Of a DNA stretch of 64,000 nucleotides, positions 38,376 to 51,825 are shown piece by piece. The first letter of the stretch is position 1, and every line of letters starts with the position of its first letter. Below the pieces are notes generated by a model. That model was given only the letters and a program-made list of their open reading frames with translations. It did not search any database and was not told the origin of the DNA. The DNA is from Methanolacinia paynteri (GTDB lineage Archaea > Halobacteriota > Methanomicrobia > Methanomicrobiales > Methanomicrobiaceae): the NCBI RefSeq assembly GCF_000784355.1, contig NZ_KN360925.1, positions 38,496-102,495 on the forward strand, in the 5' to 3' direction. The position numbers were made by a program, and so were the translations under genes.

Positions 38376-38430
38376 AATTTTCCCGTATCTGCTGAAAATT
38401 ATTTATTTGTTTAAAATTAATCATCTCTCT

Positions 38431-39222
38431 ATGCTACAAAGGAAGAGTGCATTGTTATGCATGACCCTGGCGGCCCTGGGGTTGTTATTCCTGGCGGTAT
38501 GCACACCCTGTGCAGCCATGAATATCGAGGTAACCGACGGAACCCTCCCCGACTCACAGGATGAAGCCGCTACAATAACATATACCATAGTTATTACAGG
38601 ACTACCGGTACAAGCGGAATATCTTGAGATCAGCACCGATCTTATTCCAGTTTCAGACTCTACGCTCTGGACCGTGCCCGATACGACCTATGTCGAGATC
38701 GAAGGCGGAGAAGATTCACTGAACGACCAGAAGATCACGCTCAAAATCCTCGAGTATCCCGACCAGGGCATAACGGTCACATGCTCCGGCAGGGTGCCTT
38801 CGCTGACCTCGGTCGAGACTGTCGACGGCGTTGTCATTACAAAGAGGGTGGAGCAGAGCACCGGCTACATCTATTATCACGTGCGTGCGCTGGATGAAAA
38901 CAACGATCTTCTCGGGACGGCTGCAACCGAGACCTTTTCGATAACCATACCCGGAGAGGACGTGTTCAAGGAAAGGCTGAATGCCGTCTCCGACACCGAC
39001 ATGAGGGCAATCATCGACGATCTCTACTCAAAGGGCCTGACTGACGAGGCAGGAGACCTGCTCGATTACTGGGAAGCGCCGAAGGAGTCGACGGTCTCTC
39101 TTACGATGACCGCCATCGCCGCGATAGTCCTCATGATCATAGGGCTAGTCGTGGGTGTCATCTTCGGCCAGATCAGGGCAAGAAACATGCAGGACTTCGA
39201 GGATGACTACAGGGGGAGATGA
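38431..39222 (+). CDS. Secreted protein with C-terminal membrane anchor, first gene of the tubulin-like locus
   Basis: A 263-residue protein: signal peptide (about 1-30, ending CTPCAAM), an extracellular beta-rich domain (YTIVITGLPVQAEYLEISTD, KITLKILEYPDQGITVTCSG), a short helical hinge (DMRAIIDDLYSKGLTDEAGD) and one membrane span (VSLTMTAIAAIVLMIIGLVV) with a short acidic cytosolic tail. Family unknown. An upstream TTG (38407) is possible, but the ATG at 38431 gives a normal signal peptide. The stop overlaps the next start (ATGA), so it is coupled to the tubulin-like gene. Confidence 0.8.
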   Translation: MLQRKSALLCMTLAALGLLFLAVCTPCAAMNIEVTDGTLPDSQDEAATITYTIVITGLPVQAEYLEISTDLIPVSDSTLWTVPDTTYVEIEGGEDSLNDQKITLKILEYPDQGITVTCSGRVPSLTSVETVDGVVITKRVEQSTGYIYYHVRALDENNDLLGTAATETFSITIPGEDVFKERLNAVSDTDMRAIIDDLYSKGLTDEAGDLLDYWEAPKESTVSLTMTAIAAIVLMIIGLVVGVIFGQIRARNMQDFEDDYRGR

Positions 39223-42200
39223 GATTGCCAAATGACGGCATAATCGAGGGAAGACCCTTCCAGATGCCCGACGAACTCACAGTCGTCGCGGTAGGCGGAT
39301 GCGGAAAAAAGCTGATCTCGCAGATCTACGAGCACGACTGGTTCCTGAAGCACTACCTTTCCGACGCCAAGAGACTTACCCTCTACACACTCGACACCGA
39401 TACCAACCAGAGGAAAGAAGACCTCCGGAGGGTCGCGGGTGTCGAGAAGAAACTCTCCGAGATCCAAAAGACCGAAAACCTCACAGGCGGAAGCGTCAAG
39501 GCATTCCACTATCACATCCCCGATCTCGCGAATGTCGACCGCGTCTCGTCCCTGACTTCAAAGGATATAATCGAGCAGGTAAAGAACCGGAGGGAGCCGC
39601 CGCTCGTGGACGTCTGGTGGATGAACGATCCGGATTACGGCTTCGACTACCAGGAGTTGAAGAAGGTAGACCCGAACATCGTCGATGACTTCGGCGGGGG
39701 AGTGCACAGGCGCCGTGCGATCTCCAAGGCCGTATTCTACAAAGCCATAACGCAGGGCGGCGAGCAGTTCCCGTCATTCCAGGGACACGGGCCGGTGGCG
39801 ATCATCGTCGGACTCGGCGGAGGAACCGGCTCGGGGATGTTCATCGATCTCGCCCGCTACATCAAGGAGAAACGCGGACAAGAGGCAAAGATTTGGCTCT
39901 TCTGCGTCCTTCCTGCGGCAGGAGAAGGGGAGAAGGAACAGCTCAACGCTGCAATCGCACTCTCAGAGATAGAATACCTGAACATGAAGGACGACAAGCT
40001 CTTCAACTACATCGTCCTCTCTTCCTTAAGCCCGACCGGCTACGTAGACGGCGGAGACCGGAAGAGGGAGGTAGTCGAGTTCGATTCGTCCTTCCCGTAC
40101 ATGTTCATCAACGCATTTTACCTCCCGACGGCCGATATTTCGGCGATAGTCGATGCAAAGAGAGACTATTCGGGATTCATATTCGCGGACTCGCATGTGA
40201 TCGAGTATCCTGTCGAGAACCTACGGACCCTGAAAAAAGGATTCGAGGATGTGATCGCGTCCTACTCGGAGATCTCGAACGAAAGAACACGCCTCTTAAA
40301 AGAGATCTCGACCTTCTTCGCCACGAACGAGAACCTCTACCCGGCCGAGTTCTCAAAGACGGACACAGAGATTACGCATTCCGACGTAACCAAATTCAAG
40401 AAGGAGATCGAGAAGATCAGGAATGTCTGGGAGAACGAGATCACGTCTCTTCTCAACTTCCAGACGCAGAATATCATCGAATCCGCAATAAGCAACAACA
40501 TGCCGGTAGAGCTGAAGGAGCTCGACAGGATTAACGAATTCGACAAGCTCGCCGAATATGTCACAAGGCTCAAAAAGTCCCTTGAAAACGAGAGTAAACC
40601 GCACGAGAACGCGAAGGACCAGGAACTCTACGAACTTGTCAAAAAGAATCTCAACCTCCTCGGGCAGATGGCCGAACTCCAGAATAAGACGCTCGCGGTC
40701 AGGGACAACTCGGCCCGTCTCGCCCTTGTAAACCTGATCAGGGGCGAAGAGAACTTCGGAAAGATTTCAGGGGATATCTCCTCCGAGACCGGAAAGCTCA
40801 GGGCGGAAGTGAGCGAGGCAGATACCAAAGTTTCGAAGAAGAGATCCGAGCTCGACGAGATCGTAAAGCTCAGGGACAGGGATGTCGGCCTTGTCAAATC
40901 AGAGATCAACGCCCTCGCAAAACCTGTCGACGATTATATCGCGCTGGGCCACGGGGGAGACGAAAGCGGCAGGTCGCTTGAGGATCTTGAAAGAGAGTAT
41001 ATCGATAAATTCGCATGGCTGATGTCGCTCCTCATCGAGAGGATCAATGAAACCTCTGGCAAGAAGAAGCTGAAGCCGATCAGGCGCGATGCCTGGATGG
41101 GCTCTCTCCCGCTCGGCGAGATGCAGACCGATATCGACAGGCTGGAAAAGATTACCGGAACCGATCTTGCATACCTGAACGACCTCGCCGAATCCGTCTC
41201 GCTCTACTACTTCAACGATTATATGATGAGAGTAGCCAAAAAGCAGGGATTCGGGGACACGCTCCTCGGGAAGAAGCTCAACTTCGAGATGTTCAGGAGC
41301 GAAAAGGCCACAAAGGAGGAACGCATCAACAAGATCGCGAGGATGCATCCCGGAAGGATCTTCATCCGCGAACCCTTCGAGATATATGTCCAGGACAGGT
41401 TCATCACGGGAGAGTTCGACTCGAAGATGGTCTCCCTCCGCGAGGCCGTAATCGAGCCGCTCGTCTCCCAGTTCAATCTCGAATCCGAGGAGAAAAAGGC
41501 GCTTATATCCTCGTTTTCAGGCGGAGACAGCGGACGGATACTCTCTGGCCTCAGGGAACGGCTTACAGGGATCATCAACAGCCGCGAAGGATACGAATCG
41601 AGAATCGACAGTATCAACGGCGAGATCGACGACCTTATCCAGTCCAAAAAAGAGATGCAGCAGGAGATCGAGTTCTTCACCAGGCTCGACGAGCTCATCT
41701 CTTCTTCGTTTGAGGCAAGGAAGAAGCTCAAAGCCGCACTCGACAGCTACGACTCCGGCCTCAGGGATATCGAGGAGAGAAGACGCGGCGGCTCGAAGAC
41801 CATCGAAGGCATGTACAGGACATGGTTCGGGGAGATCAATCCCGCCATACTGTCCCTGCTAAACGACGACTCGGACCTCTCTTCGCTCGACTACGACAAC
41901 GACGGGAAGAAGGAGATCGAGAAGCTCTACAATATCGTCAGGTGGAAGTACAAGGATCTCATAGATGCGCACAAGCTCGGCGTGAACAACCTCTCCGTCG
42001 GCCACGGACCCGGAGGAACGGAGAGATGGAGCTTCGAGAAATCAGCACTCGTCGCATCGTCGCCCTCCAGGTGGCTGTCGCAGATGACCGACAACAATGC
42101 GGGAGACTTCAGGCGGTATCTTGTAAAGGCCCTCGACCTCAAGGGTGTGGACTCAGCCAAGGTCAACTCGCACAACTACACGAAGCCCTGGGAGGTCTCG

Positions 42201-42482
42201 CTCACGTTCTTTGCCGCGGCAAGCTTCCTCGACAATATCTCGCCCCTTACGACCGGCGGCGGGTATTGGGAGAAATACGAGAGATCTAAGAACAACATCC
42301 TGCATCACGCCCTCTACCTCCAGCAGGGGAAGTATGTGACACGCAAACGCACCCTCCTGCTCGCCGATGCGGCAGAGATCGCAGGCCTTGAAGACGGCAA
42401 CAAGAAGTCTAGGGACGAGGCAAAGGAGAGGGTTCTTGATCTTTACGAGGTGAAGGATATCAAAGAGGCTGCCGGGGAATGA
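39219..42482 (+). CDS. Tubulin/FtsZ-like GTPase, long form (Tubulin_2 type)
   Basis: A 1087-residue protein. The N-terminal 400 residues form a tubulin/FtsZ-like nucleotide domain: TVVAVGGCGKKL (21-32), DTDTNQ (60-65) and the signature VGLGGGTGSGMF (197-208). The rest is long and mostly helical with strong coiled coils around 380-620 and 770-870, then a globular C-terminus. It is far longer than FtsZ or CetZ. No membrane span. It overlaps both neighbours by four bases, so it is co-translated with two membrane proteins and probably assembles at the cytosolic face of the membrane (inference). Confidence 0.85.
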   Translation: MRLPNDGIIEGRPFQMPDELTVVAVGGCGKKLISQIYEHDWFLKHYLSDAKRLTLYTLDTDTNQRKEDLRRVAGVEKKLSEIQKTENLTGGSVKAFHYHIPDLANVDRVSSLTSKDIIEQVKNRREPPLVDVWWMNDPDYGFDYQELKKVDPNIVDDFGGGVHRRRAISKAVFYKAITQGGEQFPSFQGHGPVAIIVGLGGGTGSGMFIDLARYIKEKRGQEAKIWLFCVLPAAGEGEKEQLNAAIALSEIEYLNMKDDKLFNYIVLSSLSPTGYVDGGDRKREVVEFDSSFPYMFINAFYLPTADISAIVDAKRDYSGFIFADSHVIEYPVENLRTLKKGFEDVIASYSEISNERTRLLKEISTFFATNENLYPAEFSKTDTEITHSDVTKFKKEIEKIRNVWENEITSLLNFQTQNIIESAISNNMPVELKELDRINEFDKLAEYVTRLKKSLENESKPHENAKDQELYELVKKNLNLLGQMAELQNKTLAVRDNSARLALVNLIRGEENFGKISGDISSETGKLRAEVSEADTKVSKKRSELDEIVKLRDRDVGLVKSEINALAKPVDDYIALGHGGDESGRSLEDLEREYIDKFAWLMSLLIERINETSGKKKLKPIRRDAWMGSLPLGEMQTDIDRLEKITGTDLAYLNDLAESVSLYYFNDYMMRVAKKQGFGDTLLGKKLNFEMFRSEKATKEERINKIARMHPGRIFIREPFEIYVQDRFITGEFDSKMVSLREAVIEPLVSQFNLESEEKKALISSFSGGDSGRILSGLRERLTGIINSREGYESRIDSINGEIDDLIQSKKEMQQEIEFFTRLDELISSSFEARKKLKAALDSYDSGLRDIEERRRGGSKTIEGMYRTWFGEINPAILSLLNDDSDLSSLDYDNDGKKEIEKLYNIVRWKYKDLIDAHKLGVNNLSVGHGPGGTERWSFEKSALVASSPSRWLSQMTDNNAGDFRRYLVKALDLKGVDSAKVNSHNYTKPWEVSLTFFAAASFLDNISPLTTGGGYWEKYERSKNNILHHALYLQQGKYVTRKRTLLLADAAEIAGLEDGNKKSRDEAKERVLDLYEVKDIKEAAGE

Positions 42483-44044
42483 TAATCAACAACAAAAGGC
42501 GAAAGATCTATCTTCTCGCCGGCCTTCCCCTTGCGATAATAGTTGCATACATATTTGTCAGTATCGCGCCATACTTCAAGAACCACCCGACCCCCGCGTC
42601 ACTGACGGTATTCATGGAGTTTCTCTGCGGCCTGTTCTTTGCAATCGCGATAGGGATGATCTTCAACGAGGACTCAAGGATCAACGGGATCATATACTGC
42701 GGAATATTTGCTGCAATCCCCGTATTCTATGTCAATGTCAGCCCCTGGGCGAATGTAACGCTTCTCCTGCTCGCTTTCGGGTCAGGAGCGGGAGTGGGCG
42801 CAGTTGCCGTGATCAGGTCGGTTCTCTCGAACAGGTATGACAGCCTTGCGAAGATCGCAAAACTCCTGTTCACGATATTCTTCGCGATAATCATCGGGTT
42901 CCTGGCGTACGAACTCTATGCCTCATCCTTCTCCGCCGATGCATCGGTATCTGAGTACCTGATTCTGCAGAACGTATTCGTATTCGGAACGGGCATCGTC
43001 ATATCGCTGGTCTTATACTGGCTCGCCATCAGGATCACGATAGGGGTCCGTGCCTCGGAGATATTCATATTCGGGCCGAGGTCCTCTGGAAAGACCTACT
43101 TCGTGCTCGGCCTCTGGGGCTACATCTCCGAACACTTCGACAAAGGTCACTCGAACGAGGGTGTCGTCCTCACGGGCGATCCCAATGACGACGGTGAGGA
43201 CCTAAGGATATCGAACCTCTATGCAAACGTGCTCGACGGCCAGATATTGTCGAGGACATACAGGTACCAGATGGTGATGTACCAGCTCACCGGAAAGAAG
43301 TTCGGCATAATTCCTGTAAAATGGACGGTCGTCGACTATGCGGGAGAATATTACGACGAGCTGAACGAGGTGAACTACACCAGGGCCATAAACCAGATCG
43401 CACCTGCACTCGGGATGCACCCCAACGATATCAGGAGGCGTGCCGGGACGATAGACTTCGTGAAGTACATAAAATTGAACTTCAGGGACATGCTCGTCGA
43501 CCCGGAGTTCACGAAGAGCGTCATACTGATCACGATGTACGGGAACTTCCTGAGAGCAGGCAAGGTGATCTTCCTCATCGACGGCGAAAAGATAACCGGA
43601 AGCAGGAAGGGCCAGGCCCAGCTTGCAAGGGAGTTCGGCGGTTACATGAAGACACTTATCGATCTTGAAAACCGGCGGAATATGAGATTCTTCAACCCCA
43701 ACAAGAAGTACGCCCTCGCTGTTACCAAGACCGACCTCCTCTTCTGGAAAAACAAGGAGATAAGGAACCAGATACTCTCGATGGGTGCGGAGAAGCTCTC
43801 GGGCATAGACGACCACTCGAGGAACGCCAGCGAGATCGAGAAGAAGATATTCTCGATACTCTCCGCAAATACGGTATTCAGAAATCTCGTCAATATGATG
43901 AACGATATCTCGATGTACTTCGTCGCGGTCTCGGTGGACGCGACAGCCGAGCCTTTCCCGACCGAAGAGGGCTTCGAGGACGAGATCGCCCCGAAGGGCC
44001 TTGCGCCGTGGAGGTTTACCGAGATAATAAAATTCGGCCTTTAG
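42479..44044 (+). CDS. Polytopic membrane protein with cytosolic P-loop GTPase-like domain
   Basis: A 521-residue protein. Residues 10-185 contain about six to seven membrane spans. The remainder is a P-loop NTPase: Walker A GPRSSGKT (199-206), a Walker B/G3-like VVDYAGE (284-290) and a G4-like TKTD (416-419), with an intermediate strand KVIFLIDGEK (362-371). TKTD indicates guanine specificity, close to TRAFAC-type GTPases. A membrane-embedded GTPase directly coupled (ATGA) to a tubulin-like protein is unusual. Confidence 0.82.
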   Translation: MIINNKRRKIYLLAGLPLAIIVAYIFVSIAPYFKNHPTPASLTVFMEFLCGLFFAIAIGMIFNEDSRINGIIYCGIFAAIPVFYVNVSPWANVTLLLLAFGSGAGVGAVAVIRSVLSNRYDSLAKIAKLLFTIFFAIIIGFLAYELYASSFSADASVSEYLILQNVFVFGTGIVISLVLYWLAIRITIGVRASEIFIFGPRSSGKTYFVLGLWGYISEHFDKGHSNEGVVLTGDPNDDGEDLRISNLYANVLDGQILSRTYRYQMVMYQLTGKKFGIIPVKWTVVDYAGEYYDELNEVNYTRAINQIAPALGMHPNDIRRRAGTIDFVKYIKLNFRDMLVDPEFTKSVILITMYGNFLRAGKVIFLIDGEKITGSRKGQAQLAREFGGYMKTLIDLENRRNMRFFNPNKKYALAVTKTDLLFWKNKEIRNQILSMGAEKLSGIDDHSRNASEIEKKIFSILSANTVFRNLVNMMNDISMYFVAVSVDATAEPFPTEEGFEDEIAPKGLAPWRFTEIIKFGL

Positions 44045-44068
44045 ACCGGACTAAAAGGACGAAGAATA

Positions 44069-45568
44069 ATGGAAGAAAATTACGGACTATTTACAACAGA
44101 CGGCCAGAGGCTCGCAGGAAACCTCCAGGACGAGTCGATTACGGGACTCGCGGAGAGGCTGGACGAGAGCACGGCGTCGCTTTTTATAAAAACATCAGGA
44201 ACATTTGTCTGGCTCGGAACCGCTGTCAACGTCCAGAAGAAGGGAAGACGACCGGACACCTTCATTTATATCGAAAAAACATCCTGGTACGGGTCGCTTC
44301 CGCCGAGGATCGACCTCTCTTACATACACGAATTCTTCGAAAGGGTTGCCGAAAGGCTCTCTTCGATCGACTACGGGATACGCGATCTCGCCTCCGATAC
44401 CGCATTCATAGGAGAGCGCCGGGGCAGATTCGTCTCCGGCCTCTCCGGGACCGGCGTGGTCGAGTACGCACTCGGGAAGACTCTTCTCTGCAAAGAGGTC
44501 GTGTGCGTATCCGACGACCTCTCGAAATCGGTCGACTTTGTTGTAGCGATAGCGGAGAAGCTCTTCCCGTTCCTCTACGCAGGATTCACAATCGTCGTCT
44601 CGAAGAGAAGTTTCAGGGGAGCGGACATTCTTGTCACCGAAAAGACGGCGGCAAAGGCGGATATCCGGCTGGATACCGAGACGATAGAGGATACGAAGTG
44701 GACGGACATCTACCGTACCGCGGGTGTCCTCCCGCAGAAGCCGGGAATGGCGCACTGGGCGGCCGAAAGAAGGAGCAGAAGACAGATCGCAGAAAGGCTC
44801 CTCTCGGACCTGAAGAAGAATGCCAGGGCAGCAGGAAGGAGTTCGTACCTGGAATCTTTTATCGATTCCGAGGAAATCGAGAAGTTCCCCTGCGACAAAG
44901 ACGGAGTCACAGGAGCCTTATCGGTGCAGGGGGAGCCTTCCACCGGAAAGAGGAACGGGCGGACCCCGTCCGAGGACGACTACGGTAAATGGGAGGTCTC
45001 GGAATACGACCGCATGAAACTGATGGACGATTACGAGCAGCTGATGGAGACGAGGAAGAAGAAGAGAATAAAGATAATCGCTGCAGTGTTCGTAATCTTC
45101 ATTCTTGCCGCAGCAGCGATCTTCGTAATCGTAAAACCCGCGGGACTCACAGGGTTCCTGCCCGGCTTCCCGGTCCAGACTTCCGCAACCCCAACGTCAA
45201 CTCCATATATCACGCCGTCGGAGACGATCGCCCAGCCGGAGGGAAATATCACCATCGAAAGGCTGAACGCGAGCCCCGGCAATATCCCCGAAGGGCTTAG
45301 GGGTGTAAGCGGTACCTACAATATAACGACCGACTCCCCACAGACAGTATTGATCGAACTTACCGGGATTTATGACCCGCTCTTATCCTACTACCTCATG
45401 GAGTTCAATACTTCCGGCTATTCATGGGATTACGTGACCGGGACATCGGAATACTCGGAGGCCGGTGCGATGGTCGTCATACCCGAATCTGGGATCTACA
45501 GGATATTTACTGCAAAAACCGGACCGGAAGAGAATATTACGGATACGAATACGACCGGCGGGGCATGA
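44069..45568 (+). CDS. One-TM protein with large cytosolic domain, unknown family
   Basis: A 499-residue protein. Residues 1-330 are soluble and probably cytosolic (VVEYALGKTLLCKEVVCVSD and FPFLYAGFTIVVSKRSF look like alternating strands and helices). A basic stretch (RKKKRIK) precedes a single membrane span at about 334-355. An outer part follows: a Thr/Pro/Ser linker (TSATPTSTPYITPSE) and a beta-rich domain of about 100 residues. I do not recognise the cytosolic domain; its place next to a GTPase recalls GTPase-associated proteins of bacterial conflict systems (inference only). Confidence 0.78.
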   Translation: MEENYGLFTTDGQRLAGNLQDESITGLAERLDESTASLFIKTSGTFVWLGTAVNVQKKGRRPDTFIYIEKTSWYGSLPPRIDLSYIHEFFERVAERLSSIDYGIRDLASDTAFIGERRGRFVSGLSGTGVVEYALGKTLLCKEVVCVSDDLSKSVDFVVAIAEKLFPFLYAGFTIVVSKRSFRGADILVTEKTAAKADIRLDTETIEDTKWTDIYRTAGVLPQKPGMAHWAAERRSRRQIAERLLSDLKKNARAAGRSSYLESFIDSEEIEKFPCDKDGVTGALSVQGEPSTGKRNGRTPSEDDYGKWEVSEYDRMKLMDDYEQLMETRKKKRIKIIAAVFVIFILAAAAIFVIVKPAGLTGFLPGFPVQTSATPTSTPYITPSETIAQPEGNITIERLNASPGNIPEGLRGVSGTYNITTDSPQTVLIELTGIYDPLLSYYLMEFNTSGYSWDYVTGTSEYSEAGAMVVIPESGIYRIFTAKTGPEENITDTNTTGGA

Positions 45569-45614
45569 TTATCCGCCCTCCGTGTGACTGGTGATTACTC
45601 CGGGAAGTTTGTTC

Positions 45615-47171
45615 ATGAGTGCCGGGCGGAATAGAACCCTGTTCATATTTTCTGCTGCAATAGTGCTTGCAGCAGTACTCATGGTCTCCTGCGTCTCGGC
45701 CGAAGATACGACGAAAGGATCGCTTGATGTCAGTTCGAATCCTTCGGGGGCGGATGTCTACCTCAACGACGAATTCATAGGGAATACACCACTTACGGTG
45801 AATGCTCTTTATCCCGGCATATATTACGTCAGGCTCGAGATGACAGGCTATGAACCATGGGAAAAGATATTCGATATAAAAGAGGGAGAGACCACCTACA
45901 TATCCTATAACCTTGACGCATCAGTCGGTGAGGCATACTCCATAAATACCGAACCTGATGGTGCTGAGATCTATTTTGACGATGAATTCAAGGGTTATTC
46001 CGACAAGGTCCTAAACAATCTTCCCACGGGACAGCATGAAATCACCCTCGTCCTCGACGGGTACCAGGACTACAGGAGAATTGTCTATATCCAGGAGGGA
46101 ATGTCGCAGTCGCTTACTCACGTATTCGAACCGATGCCCACCACAGGTACGGTGGTAGTAGAGTCTGTACCGTCAAATGCCGATGTCTATATGAACGGCG
46201 AATACATGGGAAGGTCAATGCTTACCCTCGAGGAGGTCGAACCCGGCACATACAGCATTACCGTGAAAAAGACCGGCTATGAGGACTGGGACGGTGTGGT
46301 TGTGGTCGAAGCCGGAAAGATCTCGGATGTCTCTGCCGAACTCACGGCGGCCAAAGCGCCGGTTACCATCAATACGGTTCCCGAAGGCGCCTCGGTTGTA
46401 TATGACGGAGAAGACTTGGGCACCACGCCGCTCGAATTTCAGGCCGGGCAGGGGAAGCACGAGCTTGTGATCACGAAATTCGGTTATGCCGACCTGACTA
46501 CATCGATCAATGTCAGTTACGAGGGAGGAGACTACGTCTTCGAACTTGTGCCGATGATCGCCGAGGCGATAGCGGAGGCCGAAGCGGTGATAGCGGAGAA
46601 CAGCGAGTACGGCCCGGCCGGAGCACAAACCGCCATAGAGAAGGCGAAGGAAGCCTACAACGACGGCGATGATGAAGGAGCTCTTTCATGGGCGCAGATC
46701 GCATTCCGGCTTGCCGGCGATGTGGACGACGACGGGATCGACAACCAGAACGACATGGCCCCGGGGGTGAACAATATTATAATCTACATCTCCCCGGTTT
46801 TCATCCTGATTGCTCTGATTGCCCTGATCGGCTACGATTTCAGGCGTCACATCATAAACCCTGTCCTTGAGATTGAGGTTCCCCCCTCGATCGATCCGGA
46901 CGACGAAGACGCAAAGGCGAAGATCTCGATCGATACGGGCGGGCCCGCAAAAGGGCATGTGTGCACAGTCATGATAGACGGGGAGAGGGTGGAATACATC
47001 TCTGAGACCGGAACGTTCGACATAAGCCTTGCCGGGAGGATGCCCGGCCTGCACAAAATAGAGGCAAAGCTCGAAGTTGCAAGGGAGAGATACGGAACTA
47101 AGGTCGTTACGGCATCGAAGGTCTTTGAAGTGGGCAGCGATATCATCATCGCCGAAGAGATGATGGAGTGA
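45615..47171 (+). CDS. PEGA-repeat membrane protein with cytosolic tail
   Basis: A 518-residue protein. A signal peptide/first helix (ending SCVSAED) is followed by four PEGA repeats of about 70 residues (for example SNPSGADVYLNDEFIGNTPL, VPSNADVYMNGEYMGRSML and VPEGASVVYDGEDLGTTPL). Then come a helical segment, a calcium-loop-like DVDDDGIDNQND, one membrane span (YISPVFILIALIALIGY) and a cytosolic beta-rich domain of about 115 residues. PEGA repeats bind surface polymers or proteins. GTG at 45591 is an alternative start. Confidence 0.85.
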   Translation: MSAGRNRTLFIFSAAIVLAAVLMVSCVSAEDTTKGSLDVSSNPSGADVYLNDEFIGNTPLTVNALYPGIYYVRLEMTGYEPWEKIFDIKEGETTYISYNLDASVGEAYSINTEPDGAEIYFDDEFKGYSDKVLNNLPTGQHEITLVLDGYQDYRRIVYIQEGMSQSLTHVFEPMPTTGTVVVESVPSNADVYMNGEYMGRSMLTLEEVEPGTYSITVKKTGYEDWDGVVVVEAGKISDVSAELTAAKAPVTINTVPEGASVVYDGEDLGTTPLEFQAGQGKHELVITKFGYADLTTSINVSYEGGDYVFELVPMIAEAIAEAEAVIAENSEYGPAGAQTAIEKAKEAYNDGDDEGALSWAQIAFRLAGDVDDDGIDNQNDMAPGVNNIIIYISPVFILIALIALIGYDFRRHIINPVLEIEVPPSIDPDDEDAKAKISIDTGGPAKGHVCTVMIDGERVEYISETGTFDISLAGRMPGLHKIEAKLEVARERYGTKVVTASKVFEVGSDIIIAEEMME

Positions 47172-47237
47172 TCCGAAGGACGACCTGAAAGATTAATTTT
47201 AGATCAGGCGGTTACTTCTACTATGAACGGGGGAAAG

Positions 47238-48197
47238 ATGAAGACTGAAGATAAGATTCTCCTTGGAGCTGCAGCGGTCATTTTTGCTTTTCTTATAATA
47301 TGCCTGCTTGCGGCAGTCGTTATCGCATTTACTGCCACCGGCAGTGACAGCCCGGAAGAGATCCATTTCTCCGACATATACGGGAAAAACAACCTGCAGT
47401 GGCCTTTCTGGCCGCTGGAAAAGAACATTTACGGTGATCTTTCCGAAGCGCAGGCCGAATATGCCACCGATTACATGTTCGACAATATCAGAAACACCAC
47501 GGGGACTGCCGGCAGGATGAACTTCGGCGCCTGCAAAGCAATCTTCATCGACTGCGGAGATTACGTCCACGAGATCGTATTTTACTACGGGAATACGACC
47601 GAATACGATCTCACTCCCGAACTTATGGCTGAAAATTCGACAGTTCTGCCGGGAAGAGATAATCTCACCGCAGGCTACAGGATGTACAGGATTTACCCTG
47701 AATTTCCGGCCTATTACAATGCCGAGACACCTTATGTCGACTTTACGGACGCATGGACTGACAGTTCGGTCTCGTGCATCGCGGGAGATATCGCCCGTGT
47801 AAGAACCGAAGGAAGATTCTACCGGAATTATGACGGAAAGGTTGCAGCCGTTATCGACATGACAGATCTCGGTGAGAAATCCGGGTGGGTCGTGTCAGGC
47901 AAGGAAATGATGGAGTCGAAGCAGGACAGCGACTATTCGGGAACCGTCTCGTTTGAAGGAGAATATGTCATACCTTCGGTCCCGGTGATGCCCGTGATAT
48001 ACATCGATTCCCGCGTGACATGCGGGCCATACGGCGATGTCTCGATGTTCTCATTCAGCAACGTCACCCTGCCGTTCTCCTTAGGGATAGTCGGGCTTTT
48101 CATATATGTAGTCCTGCTGCTTTTAAGCGGCGGATGCGTGATTAAATACCTTACAGGAGATAAAAAGAAAGAGGATGAAGAAGAAGGAAAATCGTGA
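47238..48197 (+). CDS. Two-TM protein with extracellular domain, last gene of the tubulin-like locus
   Basis: A 319-residue protein. One span near the N-terminus (ILLGAAAVIFAFLIICLLAA) and one near the C-terminus (SLGIVGLFIYVVLLLLSGG) flank an outer domain of about 225 residues with several N-x-S/T sites and four cysteines (including FGACKAIFIDCGD). The end is a charged cytosolic tail (DKKKEDEEEGKS). Unknown family. GGGGGA stands just before the ATG at 47238; ATG at 47223 is an alternative. It lies 66 bp after the PEGA gene. Confidence 0.75.
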   Translation: MKTEDKILLGAAAVIFAFLIICLLAAVVIAFTATGSDSPEEIHFSDIYGKNNLQWPFWPLEKNIYGDLSEAQAEYATDYMFDNIRNTTGTAGRMNFGACKAIFIDCGDYVHEIVFYYGNTTEYDLTPELMAENSTVLPGRDNLTAGYRMYRIYPEFPAYYNAETPYVDFTDAWTDSSVSCIAGDIARVRTEGRFYRNYDGKVAAVIDMTDLGEKSGWVVSGKEMMESKQDSDYSGTVSFEGEYVIPSVPVMPVIYIDSRVTCGPYGDVSMFSFSNVTLPFSLGIVGLFIYVVLLLLSGGCVIKYLTGDKKKEDEEEGKS

Positions 48198-49078
48198 GTA
48201 TCAGGATTTTGTCTTCATTTCCCTTGCAATTTTTCTCTTCACCTTATCCCAGGCGGGAGTTGTCAGGAAACTCTCTTCCATATACGATATCATCTTCTCA
48301 AACATCTTCACCGGAACTGCAAGATGCTCTCGACTCCATGAAGGCCGACGGAACATATGACACCATACTCGCAAGATACGGTCTGACCGAACCAGGATAT
48401 GCGGTCGAATACGGCCCTGAAACCGCCCTTTTTGCACTGATGTCCTACTGCGACGGAAGAATGGCCTCTGTACAGAGGGGGCTTGAAGCTGCAGCCGTCA
48501 CATCTGAGGCGGCATCGGGGGATTGGCAGGAGATAAGACCGGTCCTTGCCGGGATCGAAGACAATGAACCGGATGCAAGAATGTGGTATTCCTATACCAA
48601 CGGGACCTATTATACTGTCGTCGACGGCCTTGCAAGTGCGAACCTGATGAACCGTTCGTACTTCCCGATCATCCTTTCGGGACAGGAATCTGTCGGAACG
48701 GTAGTTGTAAGCTATTCAACCGGCAAAAGTACGGCAATTGTGGCTGTGCCAGTGAAGGACGGAGACGATGTCACGGGCGTGCTTGGCGCCTCAGTTTATC
48801 TCGAGGGAATTACCGAAGCCCTGAAGGACGAACTCCCGGGCACTGTGTTCAATGCAGTCGACAAAGAAGGAAAATTCGCGCTGAATTCGGATACCGGGCT
48901 GATTTCACAGGAAGTAATGATTAACGACGGAAACACTTCATTCGGCCGTGCAGTGGAATATATGCTCTTTACCGGCGAGGGATCGGTCGAATACGAGTCC
49001 CAAGGCAAAAACTGGAATGCTGTATTCAGGAAATCACCTCTTACCGGGTGGATCTATTCAGTTGCGGAAAGCGCCTGA
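48194..49078 (+). pseudogene. Solute-binding/Cache protein fragment with missing N-terminus
   Basis: A 294-codon frame starting with GTG inside the stop of the previous gene. Its first 40 residues are unlike protein of this genome. From about residue 40 it reads SPELQDALDSMKADGTYDTI, the usual last helix of a family-3 solute-binding protein, and then a Cache/PDC-like sensor domain (about 75-290: WYSYTNGTYYTVVDGLASAN, VAVPVKDGDDVTGVLGASVY). The 230-residue binding domain and signal peptide expected in front are absent. I read it as the 3' part of a binding-protein/Cache fusion cut off by rearrangement. A start at the internal ATG (48338) cannot be excluded. Confidence 0.6.
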
Positions 49079-49130
49079 CCGTGTCACAGGCGGGATTTTC
49101 AATCCTTTTTTAAAAAAGAATAAAGCCGAC

Positions 49131-49889
49131 TTATCCGAAAAGTCCGCCGAGGAGGCCCTTGTCGTTAAGCTCCGCCTGTGAAAGCTCCTGCAGCCTGTTC
49201 TGCTCCTCTTCCAGTACCTGTATCTGCGCCTGGATCATGGTTCTTAGTTCGTCGTCGCAGTTGCAATCGTTCATAAGGGTGTTCAGGTTTTCAATCCTCT
49301 CCCGGTTAGCCTCGATTTGATCCCGGATCTCCCCGGCCGCATCGCTGTCGCCGCCGAAGAAGAATCTTGAAACTGCATTTCTGTCCTGTATCCTCTCTTC
49401 CGCACTGTACTGGAGAGTGAGAGAGTTGTTGAACTCCTGTGCGATAGCGGAGATCTGCTCACCTGTTACGCCGGAGAGGTTTCCTGCCGCAATAAGCGCC
49501 TGAACGGCAGTACGGACTGTGTTCCGGTTCTTCAGCATGTTGTTAGTCTCAGAACCGGAAAAGTTTGCAGATTCATTCTCTATCAGCCTTATCTGTGCCT
49601 TGATCTCTTCCTGGTTCCGGAGAGCGGTCAGGTTTTCGGAAACTCCAATCCCCTGGCCTGTCGATTGATTCATATTCTCCTGCGCAGTTGCCAAACCCCC
49701 CTGGCTACCTGTCGACGTGGCAGTTCCTGGTGAATTACCATTTCCGGCTGCCGCTGTTTTATTGTAGGCGGCCGAAGCCTGGACTCCGGTGTTTCCCCCG
49801 CTGCCCGTATCGTCGTTATTCTTTGCAGCAGAGACAGGAAACGCAAATAATAACGCAATAATTAATAAAATGGCCAGTACCTTTTTCAT
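49131..49889 (-). CDS. Secreted helical protein, unknown function
   Basis: A 252-residue exported protein: signal peptide (MKKVLAILLIIALLFAF, cut after VSAA), a low-complexity Asn/Gly/Ser/Thr stretch (about 25-75), then predicted helices and coiled coil (IRDQIEANRERIENLNTLMN, IQVLEEEQNRLQELSQAEL). Two cysteines lie in NDCNCDDE. No family recognised. GGAG eight bases upstream selects the ATG at 49889. The promoter contains a perfect palindrome at 49906-49920. Confidence 0.8.
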   Translation of the reverse strand: MKKVLAILLIIALLFAFPVSAAKNNDDTGSGGNTGVQASAAYNKTAAAGNGNSPGTATSTGSQGGLATAQENMNQSTGQGIGVSENLTALRNQEEIKAQIRLIENESANFSGSETNNMLKNRNTVRTAVQALIAAGNLSGVTGEQISAIAQEFNNSLTLQYSAEERIQDRNAVSRFFFGGDSDAAGEIRDQIEANRERIENLNTLMNDCNCDDELRTMIQAQIQVLEEEQNRLQELSQAELNDKGLLGGLFG

Positions 49890-49905
49890 ATTTACCACTC
49901 CGTTT

Positions 49906-49920
49906 ATGTTAACTTAACAT
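49906..49920 (-). promoter_or_regulatory. Palindrome in the promoter of the secreted helical protein
   Basis: ATGTTAA-C-TTAACAT is a perfect 7-bp inverted repeat with one central base, 17 bases upstream of the ATG at 49889. It is probably an operator or lies at the transcription start. Confidence 0.45.
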
Positions 49921-49966
49921 GTTAATTGACAGTGCGGCTATATAGATATTTCAGTTTTTTTTGAAA

Positions 49967-50794
49967 TTATGTTGTATCCTGAATTAATTCACTGCCTGCT
50001 CGTTCGTTATCTCCCTTCTGGACCTTCATATCAAGAATCCTTATATCCGGGTGCCTGTATCTCCCGCGTCCTTCGGTCCGCTTTCCCCACTGGATTGCCT
50101 CAACCGGGCAGAAATGGAGGCATGCAAAGCACAACTCGCAGTTATGATTCCATTTCGGCCATCCTCCTGTAAGTTTTATGTTTCCAGTCGGGCAGACGTC
50201 GCTGCATACATGGCATGAGATGCAGTTGTCTTTGACGATAAATTCGCTGTCGTAGCTCCGGACTCCTTTAATGAATTTTCCGTAGGTCAGGATCTTCAGG
50301 AGAGAAGATACTGGTGCGAATGCAGGGTAATCTTTCCTTCCCTCCCCGATCTTTCCGGCGATCTCATCCAGTTTGACATCCGCCTCCCTGAGGATTTTGT
50401 CTCTCTTCTCTCCCTGCGGCGGTTTGGAGAGCGGAGGGAAGTTTCCGGGCATCCTTACGGCAAATCCGGAATCAAGCCCCCTTCCGCAGTTGTCCCTGAG
50501 GGTTTTATCAAGGACATGAAGAGCGGACGCCCCCATTCCGGCCATCGTAACGACGGCGAAACAGTACTCCGCACTGCTTAAATCGATCCTTCCGGCAAAG
50601 TCCCTGATCATCAGCGGGACTCCGGCATCGTATACCGGGCATACTATCCCGACACGTTCGACACCGGGTTCTATCTTTCCTTCCGCCTCTTTAATCGATG
50701 CTATCGGTATATGCTCACATTCGCCAAGCGATTCACCGATCCGCCTCGCCGCTGCAAGGGAGTTTCCCGTTCCGGTAAAATAGTAGATCTTCGT
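49967..50794 (-). CDS. Flavodoxin-ferredoxin fusion (EFR1-like) with no normal start codon
   Basis: The minus-strand frame encodes about 275 residues: an N-terminal flavodoxin loop (KIYYFTGTGNSLAAARRIGE), the flavodoxin body, and two [4Fe-4S] motifs near the C-terminus (CISCHVCSDVCPTG and CELCFACLHFCP). This is the EFR1 family of electron carriers. The first usual start is an ATG at 50611, inside the flavodoxin domain (MIRDFAGRID). The sequence matching the family begins with ACG-AAG-ATC at 50794, directly behind a GAGGAGG tract; an in-frame TAA lies ten codons further up. Either ACG stands for a lost ATG, or a non-AUG start is used. Confidence 0.65.
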   Translation of the reverse strand, partial: TKIYYFTGTGNSLAAARRIGESLGECEHIPIASIKEAEGKIEPGVERVGIVCPVYDAGVPLMIRDFAGRIDLSSAEYCFAVVTMAGMGASALHVLDKTLRDNCGRGLDSGFAVRMPGNFPPLSKPPQGEKRDKILREADVKLDEIAGKIGEGRKDYPAFAPVSSLLKILTYGKFIKGVRSYDSEFIVKDNCISCHVCSDVCPTGNIKLTGGWPKWNHNCELCFACLHFCPVEAIQWGKRTEGRGRYRHPDIRILDMKVQKGDNERAGSELIQDTT

Positions 50795-50947
50795 CCTCCT
50801 CTTCTCTTTCCCTTTTTGAATTTATGGAATATCCCCTTATAATATTGCTCCTGTTCCACCGGAATTATCAACAGCAGAGCGAAAACCCGAGGGCCGTCCT
50901 GGGCATGTTCGATCCCTAAGCAAGGCCCTGCGTTCCGGCCGACGAAC

Positions 50948-51667
50948 TCACGTTTGCCATTCCGACACGGTCTCATCAGGCACCGCAGGATTGAATGCGA
51001 TGTACAGCCCGACGGTTCTTACCGGATATACGGCTGACAATGCAGCTGGATCATAACCGGCGTTAAATGCGATCTCCTCTGCATTTGCACTGCTGCCAAA
51101 CCAAAGAACCGCTTCGCCGTCCATAAGTTTCCTGATGCATTCGGTATCATCTTCACAGAGGATGAGGTTTTCAAATCCGTTTTCCGTCAGGAACTGCTGG
51201 CGCGAATCGTCCCTGACGACAACAATGCTTCCCGCCTTTTTTGCAGCCTCGAGGCTGTCGATTTCGATCCCAGAGCCGGCTTTTGCATACAGCACGGTCT
51301 CGTAGGAGGCGATGGGCCCGGCCCATTTGAAAAGCGGTTCCCTTTCAGTGGTCCTGCCGGTTGAATAGAGCGCCGTTGCGGGTTCATTGAGCACGATATT
51401 ATAGCCGTCCCCCCAGGGCATAAGTTCGATATCGGCCTTCATGTTCAGCTTTTCAAGGATTCCGTTCACAACATCCGTTGACTGCCCGGTGATATTCCCT
51501 TCCTCGTCGATATAATTGTATGGCGGGAAATCTTCAGTGATTATCCTGAGCCCGGAATCTTCTGCAGGGGCCGCAGGCCCGGGAGGGGACTCTCCCAGGC
51601 AACCGCATGAAATTGCAGATAGAAGAAATATAACGAAAACCCCATAACATAATATTTTTTCAATCAT
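50948..51667 (-). CDS. Family-3 solute-binding lipoprotein, C-terminally truncated
   Basis: A 239-residue lipoprotein (lipobox ending SAISC). It has the family-3 substrate-binding fold: LRIITEDFPPYNYIDEEGNI, DVVNGILEKLNMKADIELMP, ALYSTGRTTERE and a second lobe with AKKAGSIVVVRDDSRQQFL. It stops at DETVSEWQT, exactly where the final helix (usually ...ALDxMKADGTYDxIxxKYG) should follow, so it lacks about 20-25 residues. It would bind amino acids or similar small molecules; no permease genes are nearby. ATG at 51667 fits better than upstream GTG codons. Confidence 0.75.
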   Translation of the reverse strand: MIEKILCYGVFVIFLLSAISCGCLGESPPGPAAPAEDSGLRIITEDFPPYNYIDEEGNITGQSTDVVNGILEKLNMKADIELMPWGDGYNIVLNEPATALYSTGRTTEREPLFKWAGPIASYETVLYAKAGSGIEIDSLEAAKKAGSIVVVRDDSRQQFLTENGFENLILCEDDTECIRKLMDGEAVLWFGSSANAEEIAFNAGYDPAALSAVYPVRTVGLYIAFNPAVPDETVSEWQT

Positions 51668-51825
51668 AAACACCACCACGATGTCAAATTTGTTTGTACA
51701 CGGATAATCCCTCCCTGAAGATTTAACATCTTCGCAGTGGGATCGGTTTTAATGAAGACAGGGTGCAGGAACCAAAGATTTGGAGAAAACAATTATGGCC
51801 TGTTAAGAATATATTAGAAATCCGT

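Follow-up and report, generated by a model that had tools for sequence, protein, structure and literature searches.

FtsZl1 proteins are among the most diverged homologues of tubulin. Makarova and Koonin defined the family in 2010 (PMC2875224) by an FtsZ-like N-terminal part with the motif GGGTG(S/T)G, a long coiled coil and a C-terminal domain, about 1050 amino acids in all, and their alignment includes sequences from Methanospirillum and Methanosarcina. The genes lie in operons with a P-loop GTPase that has a TKxD-type motif and is membrane-associated in archaea; membrane remodelling was proposed as the function, and a reviewer of that paper put forward transport or signalling as an alternative. 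A second group, the DO-GTPase/GAP1-N2 systems with tubulins, was described by Kaur et al. in 2020 as conflict systems (PMC7159879). We found no experimental study of the FtsZl1 family in the open literature searched, judging by titles and abstracts. Here we analyse an FtsZl1 gene and its neighbours in the archaeon Methanolacinia paynteri, in a stretch of 64,000 nucleotides (contig NZ_KN360925.1, positions 38,496 to 102,495; "the window", to which coordinates refer unless a locus handle is given). Genes A to E of this stretch form a cassette conserved in related archaea, and our leading interpretation, to which we give about even weight, is that they encode an archaeal FtsZl1 (Tubulin_2) membrane system, that is, a tubulin-like cytoskeletal module of the envelope, anchored in the membrane and switched by a GTPase, whose function we infer from the evidence below.

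Results and Discussion

Genes of the locus

According to the original prediction, six genes run in one direction and the first three overlap by four bases each, and the coordinates agree: all six genes (A to F) lie on the + strand, the A/B and B/C overlaps are 4 bp each, and C-D, D-E and E-F are separated by 24, 22 and 51 bp. The motifs it named in B (GGGTGSG) and C (GPRSSGKT, DYAGE and TKTD) are present and are largely invariant among relatives. Hydropathy and flanking charges back the membrane topologies that it proposed, giving A a signal peptide and a C-terminal transmembrane segment, C six transmembrane segments with both termini inside, D one segment with its N-terminus inside, E a signal peptide and one segment, and F two segments. 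A Pfam scan of the locus identified B as Tubulin_2 (E = 7.6e-12) and Tubulin (1.1e-8) and matched four stretches of E to PEGA (E = 3e-62), as expected from the four repeats reported earlier; A, D and F matched nothing meaningful in that scan. The features are as follows.

38431-39222, + strand: gene A, 263 amino acids; signal peptide, outer domain of ~175 residues, C-terminal transmembrane segment (39112-39168), cytosolic tail (IRARNMQDFEDDYRGR)
39219-42482, + strand: gene B, 1087 amino acids; FtsZl1/Tubulin_2 protein with a tubulin-type GTPase fold (residues 16-340), a long coiled coil and a C-terminal alpha/beta domain (861-1060)
39816-39836, + strand: T4 loop GGGTGSG of B (residues 200-206), nearly or fully invariant
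42479-44044, + strand: gene C, 521 amino acids; six-transmembrane GTPase with a membrane part (residues 1-193) and a cytosolic GTPase domain (194-521); distant DO-GTPase2 relative
43073-43096, + strand: P-loop GPRSSGKT of C (residues 199-206)
43334-43348, + strand: switch II motif DYAGE of C (residues 286-290)
43724-43735, + strand: TKTD motif of C (residues 416-419)
44069-45568, + strand: gene D, 499 amino acids; cytosolic longin-like domain (residues 1-99, 44069-44365) and alpha/beta domain (103-235, 44375-44773)
Distal part of gene D, + strand: transmembrane segment at about residues 331-355, then an outer beta domain (395-485), as predicted by an AlphaFold2 model
45591-47171, + strand: gene E, 526 amino acids; signal peptide, four PEGA domains (45717-46550), transmembrane segment (46776-46832), conserved cytosolic beta domain
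46719-46754, + strand: calcium-type loop DxDxDGxxNxxD of E, conserved in the alignment
47223-48197, + strand: gene F, 324 amino acids; two-transmembrane protein with an outer domain; a neighbour outside the core
38395-38430, + strand: possible archaeal promoter before A (GAAAATTATTTAT...TTTAAA), picked out by eye

Gene B encodes an FtsZl1 protein

B is, with near certainty, a member of the FtsZl1/Tubulin_2 family. It matches Tubulin_2 (PF13809) at 45.6 bits against a cut-off of 27 (25 of 25 relatives match this family too), and it has the FtsZl1 architecture in full: an N-terminal FtsZ-like part with GGGTGSG, a long coiled coil and a C-terminal domain, within the described range of about 1050-1090 amino acids. 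Conservation peaks in residues 16-340 (mean 0.69) and 861-1060 (0.65); the intervening coil has lower values, 0.43-0.52. In the AlphaFold2 model (mean predicted local distance difference test score, pLDDT, 72.6; predicted template modelling score 0.44), the N-terminal third follows the tubulin order and is succeeded by long helices and, at 926-1042, by a mixture of strands and helices; the C-terminal part is thus modelled as mixed alpha/beta, in contrast to the mostly alpha-helical domain of the 2010 paper, and might represent a displaced tubulin activation domain. Foldseek matched the model to CetZ2, FtsZ and tubulins at probabilities near 1.0, but the template modelling scores (TM-scores), taken by target length, lie at only about 0.25-0.43, and every E-value is above 1e-3. 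Like CetZ and FtsZ, B has the tubulin GTPase fold in its N-terminal third; it differs from them in having a coiled-coil region of ~500 residues, a co-encoded membrane GTPase and no T6-H7 or FtsZ C-terminal domain that profiles recognise.

The surroundings fit the same family, whose operons combine the FtsZl1 gene with a P-loop GTPase gene and mostly membrane-protein neighbours in genomes that also encode an ordinary FtsZ. M. paynteri has four other Tubulin-domain proteins, and because the genome has these other FtsZ/CetZ proteins the cassette is probably separate from cell division. The cassette differs from the described operons in lacking vWA, OmpA and protein kinase genes, in place of which it has A, the longin-like D and the PEGA protein E; the vWA gene, frequent though not universal in FtsZl1 operons, has no match in A-F. 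The original prediction implied that an archaeal version would be novel. This was overstated, since the 2010 paper already reports FtsZl1 proteins of archaea together with GTPases associated with the membrane (PMC2875224), and its operon-family listing may include some of A, D and E as unnamed families.

Two observations stand apart from this argument. One of the other tubulin-type proteins is an 878-amino-acid CetZ-type tubulin (L124 5608-8244, contig C31; CetZ_C, E = 2e-45) with a very long low-complexity C-terminal tail, beside which the genome encodes three FtsZ/CetZ proteins of ordinary size. PADLOC matches of B and C (CARF-HEPN, 3.5e-5; mad8, 4e-3) were taken as coiled-coil and P-loop noise.

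Gene C encodes a membrane GTPase

C consists of six transmembrane segments followed by a GTPase domain in which the P-loop, DYAGE and TKTD are retained down to about 26% identity, and it thus resembles the FtsZl1 partners: a P-loop GTPase with a TKxD-type motif, membrane-associated in archaea. On a Methanohalobium plasmid the FtsZl1 gene is followed by a remote homologue of C (hhalign probability 96.7%). C is related to the DO-GTPases distantly and below threshold. Its DO-GTPase2 match in Pfam (E = 3.7e-3, 17.4 bits) falls below the cut-off of 27, weak matches of the same kind occur in 13 of 13 C proteins (best 1.2e-4), and C aligns weakly (hhalign probability 14-32%) with genuine DO-GTPases of archaeal GAP1-N2 loci. 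RecA matches of the C profile reflected repeated P-loops only and were set aside.

The conserved unit is A-B-C-D(-E)

Synteny with 17 relatives gave a fixed order, A-B-C-D-E, in Methanomicrobiaceae; in most loci of this family B is 67-99% and C 65-99% identical, with D and E lower. Since genes and order are kept at these levels in most genomes of the family, the locus is not a chance arrangement. Profiles of each protein, run against named genomes, found A-B-C-D without E in Methanosarcinales (Methanosarcina, Methanolobus, Methanosalsum and ANME-2) and A-B-C in Methanofollis; relatives that carry names also include Methanogenium and Methanomicrobium. A lies directly upstream of B in all of these cassette classes, and A and D are conserved as well.

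Among 232 genomes of the class, B (as a long match) occurs in 33, C in 35 and both in 32. In the sole genome with B only, B runs off the end of a 3.8-kb contig, and the three genomes with C only, all of one related family, keep C and D together without B, which indicates that C and D pair on their own. Of 48 B/C junctions, sampled twice in some genomes, 33 show the exact 4-bp overlap. Pairwise identities of B and of C correlate (r = 0.95), as would be expected for any two co-inherited genes, and the B tree separates a Methanomicrobiaceae-type clade from a clade of Methanosarcinales and Methanofollis.

F behaves differently. It was found in only 5 sampled loci and lies 1-2 kb from E in other genera; a six-gene operon was therefore rejected, F being scattered, lineage-specific and uncoupled. 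The conserved unit is A-B-C-D(-E), of which F is no core member. The six-gene unit of the original prediction is thus reduced by one gene, and its central claim, that a Tubulin_2 protein and a GTPase are at the centre of a single functional unit in the membrane, is supported by the order conserved across many genomes; the scattering of single homologues that it named as evidence to the contrary is not seen for B and C. A joint function of A-B-C-D is very likely.

In several genera the cassette is preceded by a chagasin-type inhibitor gene and a major facilitator superfamily gene, a setting that speaks for inheritance in place. Some horizontal transfer is conceivable, given how unevenly the cassette is spread among families and that genome G115 holds more than one copy.

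Several loci had individual peculiarities. G115 carries two cassette versions at separate places, A-B-C-D-E and a B-C of Methanofollis type (L118 4975-17361 and L119 5772-10360), and an additional B copy with an in-frame TAA. The cassette genes of Methanogenium cariaci (L057 8463-17159) are split over several frames, by decay or sequencing errors, and on a contig labelled Bacteroidota (L054) the cassette hardly differs from that of Methanoculleus L055, which probably reflects a binning error. One C-D pair without B (L114 11324-15999) sits about 2.5-7 kb from the genes for a Vps4-like AAA ATPase (Vps4_C match), a protein with a DisA-type nucleotide cyclase domain and one that by eye is ESCRT-III-like (no Pfam hit).

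Gene D as a candidate regulator of C

Sequence searches of PDB, Pfam and NCBIfam linked D to no family of known function. Residues 1-280 are homologous to D of Methanosarcinales (probability 98.9%, 3.6e-17), and the outer part is variable. The AlphaFold2 model (mean pLDDT 73.8) has a bb-a-bbb-a order in residues 3-99, an alpha/beta region to about 235, helices, a transmembrane segment and an outer beta domain. The top five Foldseek matches in PDB were TagF (5.9e-4), DENND1A (3.0e-3), DENND1B (8.0e-3), DENND10 (1.4e-2) and an FLCN complex (4.3e-2), with archaeal Roadblock and longin chains ranked lower.

Among the domains that bind GTPases and regulate them are longin and Roadblock, and the DENN module consists of longin, alpha/beta and helical parts (PMC3521125). 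The modelled secondary-structure order of D, longin-like and then alpha/beta followed by helices, would fit that arrangement, and its gene lies next to a GTPase gene; DENN proteins rank high, but at E-values of 3e-3 to 4e-2 and with low TM-scores. It differs from the longin/DENN exchange factors and Roadblock proteins (MglB) in that no sequence similarity to them was detected and TM-scores are weak, and C is a polytopic, TRAFAC-like GTPase and not a Rab. The scores are individually weak, and the consistent TagF/DENN/FLCN theme together with the adjoining GTPase gene makes D a candidate regulator of C. We regard a regulation of C by D as a plausible lead, and the longin-plus-alpha/beta model of D is what is new here with respect to the earlier work. 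Two other identities for D were discarded: GAP1 (hhalign probability 0.1-0.2%, no Pfam GAP1 match) and a vWA protein, for which one match at E = 0.022 among 23 D proteins is at chance level.

Genes A and E

Both the outer domain of A and its 17-residue cytosolic tail are conserved; the tail is possibly a docking peptide. E is confined to the Methanomicrobiaceae-type cassette. After its PEGA domains comes a loop of calcium-binding type, D-x-D-x-D-G-x-x-N-x-x-D, the named residues of which are invariant in the alignment, followed by the transmembrane segment and a conserved inner domain that, read from the sequence by eye, appears beta-rich.

Proposed function

If the cassette is a membrane-anchored cytoskeletal module, B would work on the inner face of the cell membrane, controlled by the membrane-embedded C. 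D would bind C via its cytosolic longin-type module and change its nucleotide state, and A and E would sense or hold the S-layer side. GTP-bound C would recruit or orient B, whose tubulin head and coiled coil would let it assemble into a membrane-bound scaffold, and this scaffold might shape, partition or anchor the envelope. Consistent with such a module, homologues of A, B, C and D are encoded together in Methanomicrobiales and Methanosarcinales alike, a single membrane crossing is predicted for each of A, D and E, and C has all of its GTPase motifs. That Makarova and Koonin reached membrane remodelling from other genomes also counts in its favour (PMC2875224).

Three observations weigh against this interpretation. 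T6-H7 and the FtsZ C-terminal domain were not found in B by profile, hhalign to the FtsZ/CetZ of relatives aligning T4-H5 only, so polymerisation of B is put forward as a proposal; these elements were likewise unidentifiable by sequence in the 2010 study of FtsZl1 (PMC2875224). The fold matches of D are weak, with TM-scores of about 0.2-0.3 and a single match below 1e-3, and D is missing from Methanofollis.

The alternative that survives best, which we nevertheless consider doubtful, is a machine for transport, secretion or adhesion at the envelope, with a GTP-driven B that would cluster or place A, D and E and with PEGA repeats that would hold the S-layer. The outer domains on A, D and E, the four PEGA domains and calcium-type loop of E, and an S-layer-domain gene adjoining the Methanohalobium plasmid locus are in keeping with this idea, as is the reviewer's suggestion of 2010 (PMC2875224); but channel, protease, pilin and secretion ATPase are all absent from the cassette, and the Methanosarcinales-type clade does without E.

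Improbable, in our judgement, is a GTPase-centred conflict (defence) system of the kind described by Kaur et al. (2020), in which C would be the thresholding GTPase, D would stand in for GAP1, B would be the self-assembling effector, and A and E would serve as sensors. The ingredients shared with the tubulin-containing GAP1-N2 systems (PMC7159879) are a tubulin with a coiled coil beside a TRAFAC-type, DO-GTPase-like protein, a transmembrane protein downstream of the GTPase, PEGA and transmembrane segments; in addition, FtsZl1 of a Haloplanus plasmid lies close to vWA, Hsp70 and GrpE genes. The cassette differs from those systems in having neither GAP1, FNIII-repeat protein nor variable effectors (the latter two gave no matches in A-F) and no zinc ribbons on its GTPase. 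D is not GAP1 (hhalign probability under 1%), and GAP1-N2 was not found anywhere in this genome. The locus thus fits the FtsZl1 family and departs from the DO-GTPase/GAP1-N2 systems on three counts: the GTPase cut-off, GAP1, and the FNIII and variable effector proteins. A PADLOC scan of ten flanking genes gave one defence-like gene (Mrr-like nuclease, one locus), the flanks being mostly housekeeping, and the cassette is stable in Methanomicrobiaceae in a conserved chromosomal setting. As to a phage or viral origin, searches of 50,697 phage records and of viral contigs gave no match; plasmid matches are remote relatives only, in halophilic archaea. The defence role that the original prediction had entertained is accordingly not favoured. 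That the genes are mere neighbours without joint function, as the scattered F and the loss of D and E in some lineages might suggest, can hardly be the case given B and C together in 32 genomes, 4-bp overlaps, and order kept at 26-30% identity.

Within the cytoskeletal-module interpretation, a stronger claim would be that D, itself anchored in the membrane, is a true longin-DENN-type regulator in a prokaryote, and that its partner is a membrane GTPase by which a tubulin-superfamily protein is controlled. We think this rather unlikely; if it held, this three-part module would be a non-Asgard, methanogen example of GTPase-regulator logic usually tied to eukaryotic membrane traffic. The cassette is a compact, well-conserved, co-inherited partner set in culturable archaea, some of them Methanosarcina, and the membrane-remodelling prediction of 2010 thereby becomes testable.

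Related loci and surroundings of F

Genuine GAP1-N2 loci of the Hsp70 theme occur in two archaeal genomes, one of which (G116) also has an A-B-C type cassette at a separate place. A Methanofollis-type genome (L130 160-11006) has a full GAP1-N2/zinc-ribbon DO-GTPase/DnaJ-FNIII/Hsp70 conflict locus apart from its A-B-C type cassette. The Haloplanus plasmid locus (L126 623-19450) joins features of the 2010 and 2020 systems, with two membrane proteins, one a remote GTPase relative, encoded beside FtsZl1, vWA, Hsp70 and GrpE. Finally, just downstream of F, a segment of about 2.6 kb (48319-50955) has the opposite orientation to its counterpart in the closest genome (locus L031), and this inversion splits a solute-binding/Cache sensor gene into a front half at 50948-51679 (- strand) and a rear half at 48194-49078 (+ strand).

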